The notes under the pieces are model-generated. The model saw only the letters and a program-made list of their open reading frames with translations. It did not search any database and had not been told where the DNA came from. A stretch of 53,525 nt of DNA from an uncultured Eubacteriales bacterium (GTDB taxonomy: Bacteria > Bacillota > Clostridia > Christensenellales > Aristaeellaceae): contig CADASK010000023.1 of the NCBI GenBank assembly GCA_902790495.1, positions 1 to 53,525 of the forward strand. The letters run 5' to 3'. This document shows positions 3,700 to 12,305 of the stretch, piece after piece; the stretch's first letter is position 1, and each line of letters opens with the position of its first letter. The position numbers and the translations under genes are program-made.

Positions 3700-3719
3700 G
3701 CCCTGGAATGGTTTCCCTG

Positions 3720-3753
3720 CCGGGAGCGTACCCTGTGTGCGCCCCGGTTTTTT
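3720..3753 (+). terminator. Rho-independent terminator of the first ABC operon
   Basis: Arms CCGGG-(A)-GCG and CGC-CCCGG pair around a ~11-nt loop, with one bulged A, and are followed by six T. It lies 20 bp past the ATPase stop codon. Confidence 0.7.
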
Positions 3754-4070
3754 GCTGCAGTTGCGGAGCTCACGCCGGGGAGAAGGATGCCCGGCGGGGA
3801 TCGGAATAACACAAAATGGGAGTCGCGCATGGAACTGGCTTAAGCTGTGTATCTCCAAAGTTTTTCCTGTGTAACGTGTTGTTCACACTTGTAAACCCCC
3901 TTGACAAAAGGCTGGGAATGGTACAAAATATGGTATTGTAAAAACCCATCACACTCAAGATGTGGGTTGCTTTGCGGTGTCCCACGGGCGACGTGTTTCT
4001 GCGGCCTCATTTGGCCGGAAGGCGGGCCCGGCCGCAGGGCGGAAGAATCTGAAACAGGGGGATGATTCCC
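3754..4070 (+). promoter_or_regulatory. AT-richer upstream region and structured leader of nrdD
   Basis: No gene is seen here. A perfect TTGACA lies at 3901-3906, but no good -10 sits 17 bp away; TACAAA at 3922 (15 bp) is the nearest. The imperfect palindrome TACAA-N9-TTGTA spans 3922-3940, where a regulator could bind. Downstream, CTGCGGCC (3999-4006) pairs with GGCCGCAG (4030-4037) to form a hairpin in the presumed leader, 17 nt before the ribosome-binding site. The region is the obvious control point for the anaerobic reductase operon; the exact promoter is uncertain. Confidence 0.4.
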
Positions 4071-6353
4071 ATGATACGCAGCATCATCAAGCGCGACGGA
4101 CGGCACGTGCTGTATGACCAGAGCAAGATTGCCTCCGCGGTGCTCCGCGCCATGGAGTCGGTGCGGGAGGGCAACGCGGAGGACGCGGCCCGCGTCGCCA
4201 ACGCGGTGGAGGCCAAGCTGGAGGCCCTCTTCCCGTCCAAGTCGCCGGACATCGAGACGATCCAGGACACCGTCGAGCGCCAGCTGATGGACTACGGCTA
4301 CAACGACACGGCGAAGGCCTACATCCTCTACCGTGCCAACCGCACCACCACCCGCGACGCCAACACGGCCCTGATGAAGACCATCAACGAGATCACCCAG
4401 GAGGACGCCATCGACAGCGACCTGAAGCGGGACAACGCCAACATCGACGGCAACACCGCCATGGGCAGCATGCTGCAGATCGGCTCCGCGGGCGCGAAGG
4501 CCTATAACGAGATGTACCTGCTGCGCCCGGAGCACGCCAAGGCCTTCCGGGAGGGCGATATCTATATCCACGATTTCGACTTCTACCACATGACCACCAC
4601 CTGCACGCAGATCGATATCCTCAGCCTGTTCCACGGCGGCTTCTCCACCGGGCACGGCTACCTGCGTGAGCCTCAGTCGATTCAGAGCTACGCGGCGCTG
4701 GCGGCGATCGCGATCCAGTCCAATCAGAACGATCAGCACGGCGGCCAGTCCATCCCCAACTTCGACTACGCGATGGCCGAGGGCGTGGGCAAGACCTATC
4801 ACAAGAACTTCCTGCGCATCCTGACCGACGTGGTGGAGGACAGGCTGGACGCGGACGACCTGGGCGACACCGTGCGCAAGGTCGTGATGGAGACCGAGCG
4901 CACCCAGGGCGAGCTGGCCAAGCTGGAGAACAAGCCCGGCTTCGACGGCAAGCTGGCCAACGCCCTCTCCGCGGCGCTGGACATCAACGGCCACGAGCTG
5001 CTGCACCTGCTGGAGCGCGTGCGCTCCCGCGCGTGGAAGCGTACCGACCACGAGACCTTCCAGGCCATGGAGGGCTTCGTGCACAATCTGAACACGATGC
5101 ACTCCCGCGCCGGCGCCCAGACGCCCTTCTCCTCCATCAACTACGGCACGGACATCACCCCCGAGGGCCGCATGGCCATGCGCAACGTGCTGCTGGCCCT
5201 GGACGCGGGCCTGGGCCACGGCGAGACCTGCATCTTCCCGATCCACATCTTCAAGGTGAAGGAAGGCGTCAACTACAACCCCGACGATCCGAACTACGAC
5301 CTGTTCCGCCTCAGCTGCAAGGTCAGCGCCAAGCGGCTGTTCCCGAACTTCGTGTTCCTGGATTCCCCCTACAACCTGCAGTACTACGTGCCCGGCCGTC
5401 CCGAGACTGAGGTGGCCACCATGGGCTGCCGCACCCGCGTGATCGGCAATGTGTACGACCCCAACCGGCAGATCTCCTACTCCCGCGGCAACCTGTCCTT
5501 CACCTCCATCAACCTGCCGCGCATCGCCCTGGAGAGCCATCACGACGAGGCCGCCTTCTACAAGCGGCTGGATGAGATGCTGGAGCTGGTGGCCCAGCAG
5601 CTGCTGGACCGCTTTGAAATCCAGGCCCAGAAGCACGTGTACAACTTCCCCTTCCTGATGGGGCAGGGCGTGTGGCTGGATTCGGACAAGCTGCACGTCG
5701 CCGACCAGATCCGCGAGGTGCTGCGCCACGGCACGCTGTCCATCGGCTTCATCGGCCTGGCGGAGACCCTGACCGCCCTCTACGGCCATCACCACGGCGA
5801 GAGCGCCGAGATGGAGGAGAAGGGCATCGCCATCATCCAGCACATGCGCGACTTCTGTGACCGGAAGTCCCAGGCGATGAAGATGAACTTCACCCTGCTG
5901 GCGACCCCCGCCGAGGGCCTCTCCGGCAAGTTCATCAAGCAGGATCAGAAGCGCTACGGCAAGCTGCCCGGCATCACCGACCGCGAGTACTACACCAACA
6001 GCTTCCACATCCCGGTGTGGTTCCCGATCTCGGCCTACGACAAGATCCGCCTGGAGGCGCCCTACCACGCCCTGTGCAACGCCGGCCACATCAGCTATGT
6101 GGAGTTGGACGGCGACACCGCCCGCAACGTGGAGGCCTTTGAGCAGGTGGTGCGCTGGATGCACGACTGCAACATCGGCTACGGCAGCATCAACCACCCG
6201 GTGGACCGCGACCCGGTGTGCGGCTACGTGGGCGTCATCGGCGACGTGTGCCCGCGCTGCGGCCGCCGCGAAGGCCACCGCGTCCCCCAGAACCGCATCG
6301 ACGAGCTGAAAAAGCTCTACCCCGATGTGGTGGCGTTCAGGGGAATTGAGTAA
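4071..6353 (+). CDS. nrdD: Anaerobic (class III) ribonucleoside-triphosphate reductase, catalytic subunit without its glycyl-radical domain
   Basis: This enzyme reduces ribonucleoside triphosphates to dNTPs in anaerobes. ATG 4071 is chosen over ATG 4062 because the ribosome-binding site (AGGGGGA, 4056-4061) ends directly at 4062 but is 9 bp from 4071; the product is 760 residues. Residues ~1-95 are an ATP-cone allosteric domain (IIKRDGRHVLYDQSKI). The barrel follows, with the active-site loop GCRTRVIGN. A zinc-type cluster C-x9-C-x2-C is seen near residues 717-730 (VCGY...CPRCG). In usual NrdD the glycyl-radical segment (RITGY or similar) follows in the same chain. Here the protein stops ~30 residues after the zinc site, and that segment is the next gene. 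It is followed by the radical segment gene and nrdG in one operon. Confidence 0.95.
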   Translation: MIRSIIKRDGRHVLYDQSKIASAVLRAMESVREGNAEDAARVANAVEAKLEALFPSKSPDIETIQDTVERQLMDYGYNDTAKAYILYRANRTTTRDANTALMKTINEITQEDAIDSDLKRDNANIDGNTAMGSMLQIGSAGAKAYNEMYLLRPEHAKAFREGDIYIHDFDFYHMTTTCTQIDILSLFHGGFSTGHGYLREPQSIQSYAALAAIAIQSNQNDQHGGQSIPNFDYAMAEGVGKTYHKNFLRILTDVVEDRLDADDLGDTVRKVVMETERTQGELAKLENKPGFDGKLANALSAALDINGHELLHLLERVRSRAWKRTDHETFQAMEGFVHNLNTMHSRAGAQTPFSSINYGTDITPEGRMAMRNVLLALDAGLGHGETCIFPIHIFKVKEGVNYNPDDPNYDLFRLSCKVSAKRLFPNFVFLDSPYNLQYYVPGRPETEVATMGCRTRVIGNVYDPNRQISYSRGNLSFTSINLPRIALESHHDEAAFYKRLDEMLELVAQQLLDRFEIQAQKHVYNFPFLMGQGVWLDSDKLHVADQIREVLRHGTLSIGFIGLAETLTALYGHHHGESAEMEEKGIAIIQHMRDFCDRKSQAMKMNFTLLATPAEGLSGKFIKQDQKRYGKLPGITDREYYTNSFHIPVWFPISAYDKIRLEAPYHALCNAGHISYVELDGDTARNVEAFEQVVRWMHDCNIGYGSINHPVDRDPVCGYVGVIGDVCPRCGRREGHRVPQNRIDELKKLYPDVVAFRGIE

Positions 6354-6389
6354 TGATTTTTTGAAAGTGTGATTTTGGAGGTATTGATT

Positions 6390-6584
6390 ATGGACGAACA
6401 GATGAAGACCCAGACCCCCACCGCGACCCTCGACAACCAGGACGAAAAGCTCGGCGAGGGCGTGGGCTTCGAGCGCATTCGCCGCATCACCGGCTACCTT
6501 GTGGGCACCATGGACAAGTGGAACGACGCCAAGCGCGCCGAGGAACGCGACCGGGTCAAGCACAGCCTGGCCCAGGACGCCTGA
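6390..6584 (+). CDS. Stand-alone glycyl-radical domain of class III ribonucleotide reductase (64 aa)
   Basis: A 64-residue protein whose second half (from ~residue 27) reads FERIRRITGYLVGTMDKWND, followed by a charged AKRAEERDRVKH segment. This is the C-terminal glycyl-radical segment normally fused to NrdD; Gly35 in RITGY is the expected radical site. The first ~25 residues are polar linker. It has its own GGAGG (6377-6381), 8 bp before ATG 6390, and starts 36 bp after the nrdD stop. It overlaps nrdG (TGATG), so it is translated as a separate gene and not by readthrough. NrdG should install the radical on this small protein, which must then dock on NrdD. A functional analogue for another glycyl-radical enzyme is YfiD/GrcA of pyruvate formate-lyase, but that is a spare part, whereas here the main copy lacks the domain. 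Confidence 0.9.
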   Translation: MDEQMKTQTPTATLDNQDEKLGEGVGFERIRRITGYLVGTMDKWNDAKRAEERDRVKHSLAQDA

Positions 6585-7114
6585 TGACAGCGGGCGCGCC
6601 GGCCATCCGCCTGGCGGGCATGACGCGGGACAGCATCGTGGACGGGCCGGGCATTCGCACGACCTTCTACGTCCAGGGCTGCCCGCACCACTGCCCGGGG
6701 TGCCACAACCCGGAGACCTGGCCCTTCGAGGGCGGCGCGGAACGGACGGCGGAGGAGCTTTTCTCCGTGGTGCGCGAAAACCCGCTGTGCCGGGGCGTGA
6801 CCTTCTCCGGCGGCGAGCCCTTCGCCCAGGCGGAGGCCCTGCTGCCCCTGGCCCTCCTGCTGAAGGACGCGGGCTACGAAGTCGCCTCCTACACCGGCTA
6901 CCTGTACGAGCACCTGGCGGCGGGCACCAAGGCCCAGCGGGAGCTGCTGCGCCACATCGACGTGCTGATCGACGGGCCCTTCATCCTCGCGCAGCGCAGC
7001 CTGGAGCTGAACTTCCGCGGCAGCCGCAACCAGCGCGTGCTGAACGTGCCCGAGAGCCTGAAGCAGGGCAAGGCGGTGGAGGAGACCAGCCCCAGATGGC
7101 TGGGCGAATACTGA
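6584..7114 (+). CDS. nrdG: Anaerobic ribonucleotide reductase activating protein (radical SAM)
   Basis: A 176-residue radical-SAM activase that generates the glycyl radical on NrdD, here presumably on the separate 64-residue protein. The CX3CX2C cluster motif is CPHHCPGC (~residues 33-40), preceded by DSIVDGPGIRTTFYVQG. The SAM-binding TFSGGEPFAQ follows (~residue 76). ATG 6584 overlaps the stop of the preceding gene (TGATG), showing translational coupling. It ends the operon before a strong terminator. Confidence 0.96.
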   Translation: MTAGAPAIRLAGMTRDSIVDGPGIRTTFYVQGCPHHCPGCHNPETWPFEGGAERTAEELFSVVRENPLCRGVTFSGGEPFAQAEALLPLALLLKDAGYEVASYTGYLYEHLAAGTKAQRELLRHIDVLIDGPFILAQRSLELNFRGSRNQRVLNVPESLKQGKAVEETSPRWLGEY

Positions 7115-7128
7115 CAACAGAAAAAAGA

Positions 7129-7183
7129 GAACAGGCATGCCGGACGGGAAACCGTGTCATGGGCATGCCTGTTCTTTTGTTCT
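7129..7183 (+). terminator. Terminator of the nrd operon
   Basis: A perfect 13-bp stem (GAACAGGCATGCC / GGCATGCCTGTTC) closes a 20-nt loop and is followed by TTTTGTTCTTT. Confidence 0.9.
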
Positions 7184-8253: not shown

Positions 8254-9183
8254 TTAAGGGGCCTTGACAGCCTCGACCACGTGCTGGCCGTCGAGGCCGT
8301 AGCGGGCCTTGACCTGGGCCGTGGGGCCGGACTGGGTGAAGACGTCCTGCACGCCGACCTTGCGCACCGGGGGATGGACGCCCCGCTCCGCCAGGGCCTC
8401 GCACACCGCGCCGGCCAGGCCGCCGATCACCGAGTGGTTCTCCACGGTGACGATGCGGCGCACGTCCTTCACCAGCTCCCACAGGGCGTCGGCGGGGAAG
8501 GGCTTCACGGTCTGGAGCTGGATCATGCGGCCGCGCAGGCCCTCCGCCCGGAGCTGGTCAAAGCCCTGCTTGGCGGCCATGAGGGCCGTGCCCTCGTAGA
8601 CGATGGCGAAGTCGCTGCCGTCGTCATAGATCTGCTTCGCGCCGCCAAAGGGCTGACCGGCGGCGAGGGAATCCGTCAGCACCGGCACCACGTCGCGGCT
8701 GACGCGGATGTAGCAGGGGCCGGGGACGGCGAGGGCATCGGCGACGGCCTCCCGCAGCTCCTCCGGCGACTGGGGGATCAGGATGCGCATGCCGGGCAGC
8801 GGGCGCATCAGGGCGATGTCCTCGCAGGCGTGATGGCTCGCGCCGTCCGGGCCGTTGTCCATGCCCGGGTGGGTGGAGAGCAGCTTCAGGTTCGCGCCGG
8901 CGTAGCAGGCCATGCGCACCTGGGTCCAGGCGGAGCCGGTGCAGAAGAGGGCGAAGTTGACGTAGAACGGGATCATGCCCTCCATCGCCAGGCCCGTGGC
9001 GACGGACACGGCGCTGCACTCGGAGATGCCGCACTCGACGAAGCGGTCCGGGTGCTCCTTCTGGAAGTGAGCGCTGCGGGTGGCCCCGGACAGGTCGCCG
9101 TCCAGCACCACCATCCGGTCGTCATAGAGGGCGTTGAGGGTTTTGCCGACATAGTCGCGGAGAGATACGGTTTCCATGGCCAT
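8254..9183 (-). CDS. Transketolase, C-terminal subunit
   Basis: A 309-residue protein matching the pyrimidine-binding and C-terminal domains of transketolase. VDFxxxE-like features are VECGISECSAVSVATGLA (the ~residue 54 Glu would activate thiamine diphosphate) and a Pyr-domain FALFCTGSAWTQVRMACYAG. It pairs with the N-terminal subunit encoded 1 bp upstream to make a split transketolase, which transfers two-carbon ketol units between sugar phosphates. GGAGGT lies 7 bp before ATG 9183, inside the end of the partner gene. The split arrangement is common in Clostridia and archaea. Such pairs sometimes act on unusual ketoses, so the substrate is open. Confidence 0.92.
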   Translation of the reverse strand: MAMETVSLRDYVGKTLNALYDDRMVVLDGDLSGATRSAHFQKEHPDRFVECGISECSAVSVATGLAMEGMIPFYVNFALFCTGSAWTQVRMACYAGANLKLLSTHPGMDNGPDGASHHACEDIALMRPLPGMRILIPQSPEELREAVADALAVPGPCYIRVSRDVVPVLTDSLAAGQPFGGAKQIYDDGSDFAIVYEGTALMAAKQGFDQLRAEGLRGRMIQLQTVKPFPADALWELVKDVRRIVTVENHSVIGGLAGAVCEALAERGVHPPVRKVGVQDVFTQSGPTAQVKARYGLDGQHVVEAVKAP

Positions 9184-9184
9184 G

Positions 9185-10000
9185 TCACTGACCTCCTTCC
9201 AGCGCGTCCAGGTCGCGGAGGGCCCGCTCGTACAGCTCCCCGGAGATGCCGGAGGAGTGGTAGGCCACGTTGTTTTCCATATAGGAGACGCCCTTGCCCT
9301 TCACCGTCTCCGCGATGATGGCGTAGGGCCCGTCCTCACAGGCCCGGGCGCGCTCGAGCGCGGCCAGGATCTGCTCCATGTCGTGGCCGTCGATGGTCTC
9401 CGCTGTCCAGCCGAAGGCGCGGAACTTCTCGGCGAGGTCCCGGTTGTCGATCACCTCGCGGGTGACGCCGGAGGAGGAGAGGTGGTTCTCGTCCACCACG
9501 CAGATCAGATTGTTCAGCTTCCACTGGGCGGCCTGGGCCGCGGCCTCCCAGATCTGGCCCTCGTGCATCTCGCCGTCGCCGCACACGACATATACCCGAT
9601 GGGGATCGCCCTGCATCCGCTTGGCCAGCGCCATGCCGATGCCTTGGGAGAGTCCCTGGCCGAGGAGGCCCGTGGTGGCGTCCACCTCGGGCAGGCGGTG
9701 GGTGCAGGGATGGCCCTGCAGGCGTGAGTCGAGCTGGCGCAGGGTGCCCATCTCCGCGTCGGAGAGGATGCCGGCCTCGTGCAGGATGGCGTACTGGGCG
9801 GGGACGGCGTGCCCCTTGGAGAGCACCACGCGGCTACGGGCCTCGGCGTGGAGGTCGACGTCGGTGGCGTAGATGGCGGTCAGCACATCGATGACCGAGA
9901 GGGAGCCGCCGGGGTGACCGGCGTTGGCGGTGTGGATCATGTCCACGATGGCGCGGCGGTGTCGGTTCGCCTGCGCCTGCAGTTCCTGGGCGGATGGCAT
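9185..10000 (-). CDS. Transketolase, N-terminal subunit
   Basis: A 271-residue thiamine-diphosphate-binding half of a split transketolase. The TPP motif is CGDGEMHEGQIWEAA (~residues 142-156), preceded by NAGHPGGSLSVIDVL, LSKGHAVPAQYA and GLLGQGLSQGIGMA, all typical. AGGAGG precedes the ATG by 8 bp. It is first in a tktN-tktC(-rpiR) transcription unit driven by a perfect consensus promoter at 10103-10131. The divergent pfkB-transporter operon places this enzyme in a sugar-catabolic cluster. Confidence 0.94.
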   Translation of the reverse strand: MPSAQELQAQANRHRRAIVDMIHTANAGHPGGSLSVIDVLTAIYATDVDLHAEARSRVVLSKGHAVPAQYAILHEAGILSDAEMGTLRQLDSRLQGHPCTHRLPEVDATTGLLGQGLSQGIGMALAKRMQGDPHRVYVVCGDGEMHEGQIWEAAAQAAQWKLNNLICVVDENHLSSSGVTREVIDNRDLAEKFRAFGWTAETIDGHDMEQILAALERARACEDGPYAIIAETVKGKGVSYMENNVAYHSSGISGELYERALRDLDALEGGQ

Positions 10001-11264: not shown

Positions 11265-12305
11265 ATGAAGAAACTGTTAGCACTGGTTCTGGCCCTGGCG
11301 CTGTGCCTCGGCAGCCTGGTCATTCCGGCCCTGGCTGATGACGGCCCCTCCGGCGAGCTGATCCTGTACACCACGGTCAGCGAGCGTCAGTACACCGCCC
11401 TGGTCATCGACGGCTTCATGAAGAAGTATCCGAACATCGACGTGAAGTTCACCAAGGCCGGCGCCGGCGAGAGCAAGGCCCGCATCATCAACGAGAAGGA
11501 CAATCCCCAGGCGGACGCCATGTTCGGCGGCCTGGTGTATGCCGACACCCTGGGCGACCTGGCCGACTGCCTGGAGCCCTACGTGAGCGAGTGGGACGCC
11601 AAGATGCCCGAGGACATGAAGAACAAGACCGGCATCCTGTCCTATCACGACACCCAGATCCCCTGCCTGTGGGTCAATGACGAGCTGGAAGCCGAAGCCG
11701 GCGTGAAGATCACCGGCCTGAAGGACCTGCTGGATCCCGCCCTGAAGGGCCAGGTCATCTCCGCCGATCCTACCGCCTCCTCCTCCGCCTGGAACAACCT
11801 GCAGATGATCCTGACCGACTTCGGCGGCTGGGACAGCGAGGAAGCCTGGAACTACATCAAGGGCCTGCATGACAACGATCTGGTCATCGCCTCCTCCTCC
11901 TCCGGCCCCTACAAGACCGTGTACCAGGGCGAATACACCGTCGGCCTGACCTATGAGCCGGCCGTGGTGCAGATGCAGGGCGAGGTCGACGATCCCGCCG
12001 AGCTGGGCTGCCACATCGTGTACCCCGTCGAGGGTGTCACCTCCATCGCCTTCGGTTCCGCCATCATCAAGGGCGCGAAGAACATGGAGAACGCGAAGCT
12101 GTTCATCGACTGGCTGCTGTCCGACGAGGGCCAGGCCATCTACAACGAGTGCGGCGCCCGTCAGGCCAACGCCAACCTCGAGCTGGAGAACCCCAACAAG
12201 CTGATGGTCAACCTGGCTGACATCAACTACCTGGTGGCCGACGTGCAGGCTCTGTCTGAGAATCAGCCCGCCATCCACGATCATTGGCGCGAGATCTTCA
12301 AGTAA
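11265..12305 (+). CDS. ABC transporter substrate-binding protein (Fe3+/AfuA-type fold), SPase I-type signal
   Basis: A 346-residue extracellular binding protein. Residues 1-24 are a signal peptide (MKKLLALVLALALCL ... PALA) with a type I cleavage site after ALA; no lipobox with the required small residue before Cys is seen. The mature part begins GELILYTTVSERQYTALV, typical of the AfuA/FbpA family (family 1 solute-binding). That family includes binders of iron(III), phosphonates and hexose phosphates. AGGAGG lies 6 bp before the ATG. It is second in the pfkB operon and is followed by a terminator-like hairpin before the ATPase gene. Lack of a lipid anchor is unusual for a monoderm binding protein. 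Confidence 0.9.
   Translation: MKKLLALVLALALCLGSLVIPALADDGPSGELILYTTVSERQYTALVIDGFMKKYPNIDVKFTKAGAGESKARIINEKDNPQADAMFGGLVYADTLGDLADCLEPYVSEWDAKMPEDMKNKTGILSYHDTQIPCLWVNDELEAEAGVKITGLKDLLDPALKGQVISADPTASSSAWNNLQMILTDFGGWDSEEAWNYIKGLHDNDLVIASSSSGPYKTVYQGEYTVGLTYEPAVVQMQGEVDDPAELGCHIVYPVEGVTSIAFGSAIIKGAKNMENAKLFIDWLLSDEGQAIYNECGARQANANLELENPNKLMVNLADINYLVADVQALSENQPAIHDHWREIFK

Follow-up and report, generated by a model that had tools for sequence, protein, structure and literature searches.

The window, as we call the whole stretch of 53,525 nucleotides from a gut-type bacterium analysed here, carries a class III ribonucleotide reductase (RNR) gene, nrdD, that ends before the glycyl-radical segment, and downstream of it a small gene that encodes such a segment on its own. 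This raises the question of whether the two products work together as one enzyme, with the radical site on a separate chain. Judged from comparative sequence evidence, the locus very probably encodes a functional two-chain class III RNR.

Layout of the locus and its residues

The features in the window are:

4062, plus strand: alternative nrdD start (763 aa)
4071..6353, plus strand: nrdD, catalytic chain of the class III RNR, lacking the glycyl-radical segment (760 aa)
6204..6266, plus strand: zinc segment DRDPVCGYVGVIGDVCPRCGR, the last stretch in common with intact NrdD
6267..6350, plus strand: C-terminal tail REGHRVPQNRIDELKKLYPDVVAFRGIE of the truncated NrdD, kept in split systems of the window type
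6375..6381, plus strand: Shine-Dalgarno sequence TTGGAGG of the small gene
6390..6584, plus strand: gene for the 64-aa glycyl-radical-domain protein, radical Gly35 by alignment
6468-6563, plus strand: FERIRRITGYLVGTMDKWNDAKRAEERDRVKH within the small protein
6492-6494, plus strand: codon of radical Gly35
6584..7114, plus strand: nrdG, encoding the radical-SAM activase; overlaps the small gene (TGATG)

The truncated NrdD consists of an ATP-cone, the barrel, the zinc segment and a new 28-aa tail. Its C-terminal end is formed by VCGYVGVIGDVCPRCGR followed by 28 residues, and the RITGY segment is absent, which bears out the claim of the earlier note that nrdD stops about 30 residues past its Cys cluster. 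The separate 64-residue gene described there was confirmed as well: it follows after a gap of 36 bp (6354-6389) containing GGAGG, and its stop codon TGA (6582-6584) overlaps the ATG of nrdG at 6584. Of the 562 positions of the Pfam NRDD model, the first protein matches 1-531 and the second 533-562, and no single chain in the window carries the profile over both the barrel and the radical loop. The small protein, a stand-alone radical-glycine protein of 64 aa in the manner of GrcA/YfiD, matches NrdD models only in Pfam and NCBIfam at E ≤ 0.01, and no PFL-type glycyl-radical domain was found in it by the same searches. The adjacent activase scores 138.9 bits with TIGR02491, above the cut-off of 126.1. 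Elsewhere in the window, two adjoining ORFs on the minus strand (8254-9183 and 9185-10000) look like a transketolase in two pieces, the former being its C-terminal and the latter its N-terminal half.

Against the NrdD of P. copri (8p23), the window NrdD aligns as far as chain residue 705, and residues 707-738 are covered by the small protein. Gly35 falls on 8p23 chain residue 715, the Gly711 of passages in PMC11226230, with the offset of 4 between the two numberings read from the alignment. Numbered from 4062, the window NrdD has Cys181 and Cys456 as its catalytic pair and Asn477 as the formate-type Asn; its TTTC and MGCRTRV motifs align with P. copri NrdD, and the NAN flap is present. The roles of the Cys pair, the formate-enzyme Asn and radical Gly711 are taken from those passages, which also describe the fused radical domain of P. 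copri NrdD as mobile and report that with dATP the radical still forms though the domain is unseen in cryo-EM maps. The authors of PMC11226230 caution, in the same portion of the text, that the radical would be unstable if exposed and that the mobility of the domain is maybe exaggerated. Because the P. copri domain is mobile and its radical forms with dATP, the work of a radical domain in trans is plausible, and we press the comparison no further.

Split NrdD and its partner genes across genomes

Within the genus, the split occurs in five of 12 genomes (own included), representing five species, and no match to the small protein was found in the other seven, which are 66 to 97% complete. Over a 32-codon core, the five split species show 0 amino-acid changes, and their synonymous codon differences average 7.0 per pair (10 pairs; dN 0, dS 0.15-0.76). 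The radical segment is under strong purifying selection, and since five species share the split with 0 amino-acid changes, the pattern is not a matter of chance.

Used as query against genome contigs, the window NrdD gave 50 loci, four of which end before the C-terminus. Among the 46 NrdDs with a visible end, 20 retain the radical segment and 26 lack it. The small gene is present in the genome for all 26 segment-less NrdDs, adjacent to nrdD in 20 and on another contig in six, although in L142, one of these six, each gene is at the edge of its contig and the two are possibly true neighbours. The 26 include Gemmiger sp. An120 and Anaerovibrio lipolyticus An883, neither of them labelled a MAG in its record, as well as L150, the NrdD end of which resembles, by eye, a decayed radical segment. 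The earlier note had proposed a survey of relatives for the order nrdD-small gene-nrdG, and this order recurs in 19 of the 20 genomic loci with adjacent genes, nrdG being told by motif; the exception is L152, where no nrdG-like gene follows, and the nrdG-like gene of L149 is cut by the contig end. In A. lipolyticus An883 the small gene and nrdD are on different contigs; an nrdG-like gene immediately follows the small gene, and no copy of the small gene was found in more than 4 kb after nrdD.

Broader surveys gave a similar mixture of arrangements. An NrdD-kind radical segment is encoded in 74 of 245 genomes of the class; its short frames comprise the window's own and five split systems (G559, G518, G580, G471, G484), and four further genomes (G447, G581, G431, G495) have solo radical-domain genes, either next to an intact NrdD or away from it. 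At least 141 of 250 genomes in the family survey match, with intact, split and solo copies mixed.

Several individual loci deserve separate description. The Oscillospiraceae MAG AS21ysBPME_312 (L150, 4971-7547) shows the decayed-looking NrdD end followed by a short separate radical-domain gene, and is possibly a transitional form. The NrdD frame of Paenibacillus alvei plasmid pPAV141 (L170, 4989-6847) is in two pieces, and this locus was counted as retaining the segment. The split locus L110 (G109, contig C44) has a broken nrdD frame in a genome with two more full-length NrdDs. Two genomes with a segment-less NrdD carry two radical-domain genes each (G287:C7:55419, equal to L283 4375-4653, and G345:C71:262).

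Whether the pair is needed can be approached through the other RNRs of the same genomes. We searched 33 split-NrdD genomes from three surveys (22, 6 of 10, and 5 of 11) for class III and class I/II enzymes. In 11 of the 33 no other class I, II or III RNR was found: G276, G279, G280, G287, G345, G346 (A. lipolyticus An883), G347, G348, G350, G484 and G580. Of these, G580 is 99% complete with 1% contamination, G484 is only 65% complete, and several are MAGs without stated completeness. Nineteen of the 33 have another NrdD or an enzyme of class II type, which in the three Gemmiger among them is no more than an 803-aa protein with a weak PF02867 match, and G289, G290 and G293 carry further NrdD fragments, so that they were counted neither with nor without another RNR. 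The 803-aa protein of Gemmiger sp. An120 (L281, 251-2662), which accompanies the split class III system, has an ATP-cone-like start in addition to its weak PF02867 match and is presumably a class II-like RNR.

If no RNR is missing from the sequences of the split-only genomes, the radical domain would have to act in trans. Comparative genomics gives good support to the proposal of the earlier note that a small protein of its own carries the radical glycine: all 26 segment-less NrdDs have a partner gene, and in 11 of 33 split genomes no other RNR was found. The same evidence supports well that this small protein would need to work with the truncated NrdD.

Stand-alone radical domains and alternative readings

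Radical-domain genes also occur apart from truncated NrdDs. Our first survey covered 60 genomes (own included), 12 of which carry 13 stand-alone segment genes with an N-terminal extension; an intact NrdD is also present in all 12. Crude ORF clustering gave no convincing shared neighbour at the 13 chromosomal solo loci, and the largest cluster consisted of opposite-strand ORFs over the solo gene itself. Two genomes of one genus, G447 and G581, have the order intact nrdD-solo gene-nrdG-like gene, a possible intermediate toward the split.

Contigs from IMG/VR, for which we follow the viral label of that database, carry many such genes. Scanned with the window small protein, IMG/VR gave 309 relatives, of which 80 were sorted: 66 small genes without NrdD in the locus (one, L236, begins at a contig end and is indistinguishable from a cut fusion), seven with a segment-less NrdD (in L249 on the opposite strand, at a distance of about 4 kb) and seven fused. 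Forty-four of the 66 solo contigs were searched whole, and none has an NrdD elsewhere in the contig, although contigs may be incomplete; the same search took in six of the seven loci with a segment-less NrdD. A second scan, with a solo protein bearing the N-domain as query, yielded 279 relatives, of which 80 were kept; 79 of these together with the locus from a scan with the L234 solo protein, which returned its own contig only, divide into 67 solo, seven with a segment-less NrdD in the locus and six fused. The two scans overlap and hold near-copies, and L306 and L317 are one contig. Of 50,697 GenBank phage records, only 14 match the small protein; 11 of the 14 are faecal phages, and the one C. 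difficile phage that we inspected carries its copy fused to NrdD.

Further variants were seen as well. Eggerthella phage EL753P1 (L280) has an NrdD ORF at 3717-6599 without the radical domain and with an insert beside the active-site Cys, which we assume to be intein-like, and downstream, at 6964-7169, a small radical-domain ORF with a stop within the domain. A short-type solo gene lies at 5001-5135 of L396, from Subdoligranulum variabile plasmid OY725842.1, a 90-kb circular element. Another N-terminal extension, of about 85 aa or more, is found on solo proteins of a Saccharibacteria-labelled MAG and of viral contigs (L302, L237/L238).

Solo genes, whether they accompany an intact NrdD or lie in contigs predicted to be viral, are candidate spare parts, and they lend indirect support to the possible GrcA-like exchange put forward in the earlier note. 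Their coexistence with intact NrdD in many genomes, together with the gene order of G447 and G581, would fit a reading in which the small protein serves mainly as a GrcA-like spare or regulator for other NrdDs, the truncated NrdD drawing on another radical source. We consider this unlikely, since no other source of a radical glycine was found in the split-only genomes and the segment-less NrdD and its partner gene co-occurred in 26 of 26 cases. The small protein of the window looks like an obligate subunit rather than a spare.

Less likely still, and in our judgement highly improbable, is that the truncated nrdD is a degraded pseudogene kept by chance while a full-length NrdD does the work. 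The genome of the window does encode such an NrdD (contig C8, L004 8903-11182), ending in RRTCGYIGTQYWNQ, with an NrdG-like gene downstream (11285-11875). It belongs to another lineage (CGY), which we take to be E. coli-like, and shares about 26% identity with the window NrdD over the core; no class I/II RNR (PF02867) was found in this genome. The earlier note had named a full-length NrdD elsewhere as evidence against its reading, and one does exist; coming from a different lineage with its own NrdG, however, the second NrdD is not an intact copy of the window nrdD, and the split stands. Given the second NrdD, the split pair need not be essential in its own genome. The broken nrdD frame of L110 also speaks for decay, but the small gene shows no nonsynonymous change at dS values of up to 0.76, the catalytic residues are intact, and 11 split genomes, one of them 99% complete, have no other RNR that we could find. 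The pseudogene reading of split nrdD was rejected on account of codon-level conservation.

That both ORFs are made as one chain, through stop-codon readthrough, a frameshift or a sequencing error, would suit the shared frame in the window, a feature that the earlier note does not mention, where TAA TGA stands between them, but is almost certainly wrong: among 25 non-redundant linked pairs (a set without L150, L214 and L231) the relative frame is 0 in 11, 1 in 5 and 2 in 9, with gaps of about -4 to 187 nt, an SD-like run precedes the small gene in 36 of 41 split systems (starts being picked for the best such run), the two genes lie on different contigs in six genomes, and the same split recurs in independent assemblies. 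As the frame varies among relatives, readthrough is not a shared mechanism and was rejected.

Proposed docking and mechanism, and significance

For the two-chain enzyme, the ends of the proteins suggest how the chains may meet. We gathered 43 split systems and scored 41, with L110 and L389 dropped as their NrdD end was not found by pattern, and with the partner start of L152 set by hand (7286). In 31 of the 41, an NrdD tail with a helix-like motif accompanies a partner with a short leader (10-30 aa), and in the other ten an NrdD without the tail accompanies a partner with a long N-terminal part (52-85 aa). The pairing is 31:0:0:10, free of mixed cases, with a Fisher p of 9e-10 that is overstated, as the tail pattern was chosen post hoc, partner starts were those with the best SD, and the tree offers only two to four independent contrasts. 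We propose that the tail of the truncated NrdD is a docking or replacement element. AlphaFold predicts the N-domain of one long partner as beta-alpha-beta-beta (pLDDT 83-88). A PDB fold search with this model gave nothing at E ≤ 0.001, the best being weak YfiA/HPF-like and ribosomal matches, and no Pfam or PHROGs family was found for the N-domain, the NRDD segment being recognised in 50 of 50 members and the remaining matches weak and scattered. A read-through fusion of NrdD and the small protein was modelled with low confidence in the radical domain (pLDDT 27-60).

On a quick LG+G4 tree of 78 NrdD cores (74 labelled rows, with long-branch warnings), the split label needs eight changes, five of them forced by well-supported branches; the changes are undirected, so that splitting and re-fusion are not told apart. 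The window NrdD falls in a 16-row all-split clade (SH-aLRT 100) that includes Gemmiger, Lachnospiraceae-labelled MAGs and viral contigs.

Based on homology and on these co-occurrences, we propose the following hypothetical mechanism, in which (i) chain 1 (NrdD) holds the ATP-cone, active-site barrel and zinc segment, and chain 2 (64 aa) the glycyl-radical loop; (ii) NrdG would make the radical on Gly35 of chain 2; (iii) chain 2 would dock into the NrdD barrel, or become activated there, like the fused C-terminus of an ordinary NrdD, guided either by the NrdD tail (in the short-partner type, as in the window) or by the beta-alpha-beta-beta N-domain of the partner; and (iv) chain 2 would pass the radical to Cys456 and take it back at each turnover. 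Since oxygen cuts the protein at its radical glycine, replacing chain 2 alone would suffice after such damage.

The ordinary class III RNR (NrdD/NrdG; PF13597, TIGR02487; P. copri 8p23) has the same ATP-cone, Cys-pair barrel, formate-type Asn, zinc segment, RITGY loop and NrdG, whereas the window has the radical loop on a separate 64-aa chain and a new NrdD tail. The PFL spare parts E. coli GrcA/YfiD and phage T4 Y06I are likewise small stand-alone glycyl-radical domains, also phage-borne, according to excerpts of PMC8683613. The window segment differs from them in being of the NrdD-type RITGY kind, not PFL-type, and in pairing with a naturally truncated enzyme, whereas GrcA, in those excerpts, repairs an oxygen-cleaved intact enzyme. 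Only YfiD and Y06I are named there as validated, with the remark that other glycyl radical enzymes might have such parts. The split class II RNR NrdJa/NrdJb, named in PMC9669993 and PMC4520616, also distributes an RNR catalytic chain over two gene products, but belongs to another class, with another cofactor and split point and without a glycyl radical. Phage nrdD genes in pieces, interrupted by introns, inteins or unknown causes, appear in sections of PMC3653736; there one gene is interrupted in single phages, whereas here the split recurs at the radical boundary, with its own start and conserved sequence. We found no description of an NrdD with a separate radical domain, or of an NrdD spare part, in the open-access library that we searched, and portions of PMC9531940, PMC12288474 and PMC11194802 contain nothing on either.

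Taken more broadly, we lean somewhat towards the view that an exchangeable NrdD radical subunit is widespread, obligate with truncated NrdD and a spare with intact NrdD, that phage solo copies would keep the host enzyme alive after oxygen damage, and that two docking solutions arose in parallel. Several lineages appear to operate an enzyme of DNA synthesis whose radical site is borne by a small protein of its own, encoded in some cases by an unlinked gene. The question of whether a glycyl radical domain can work in trans becomes directly testable, and split NrdD offers a natural route to swap or label the radical site. The findings further suggest that phages supply radical domains to their anaerobic hosts.
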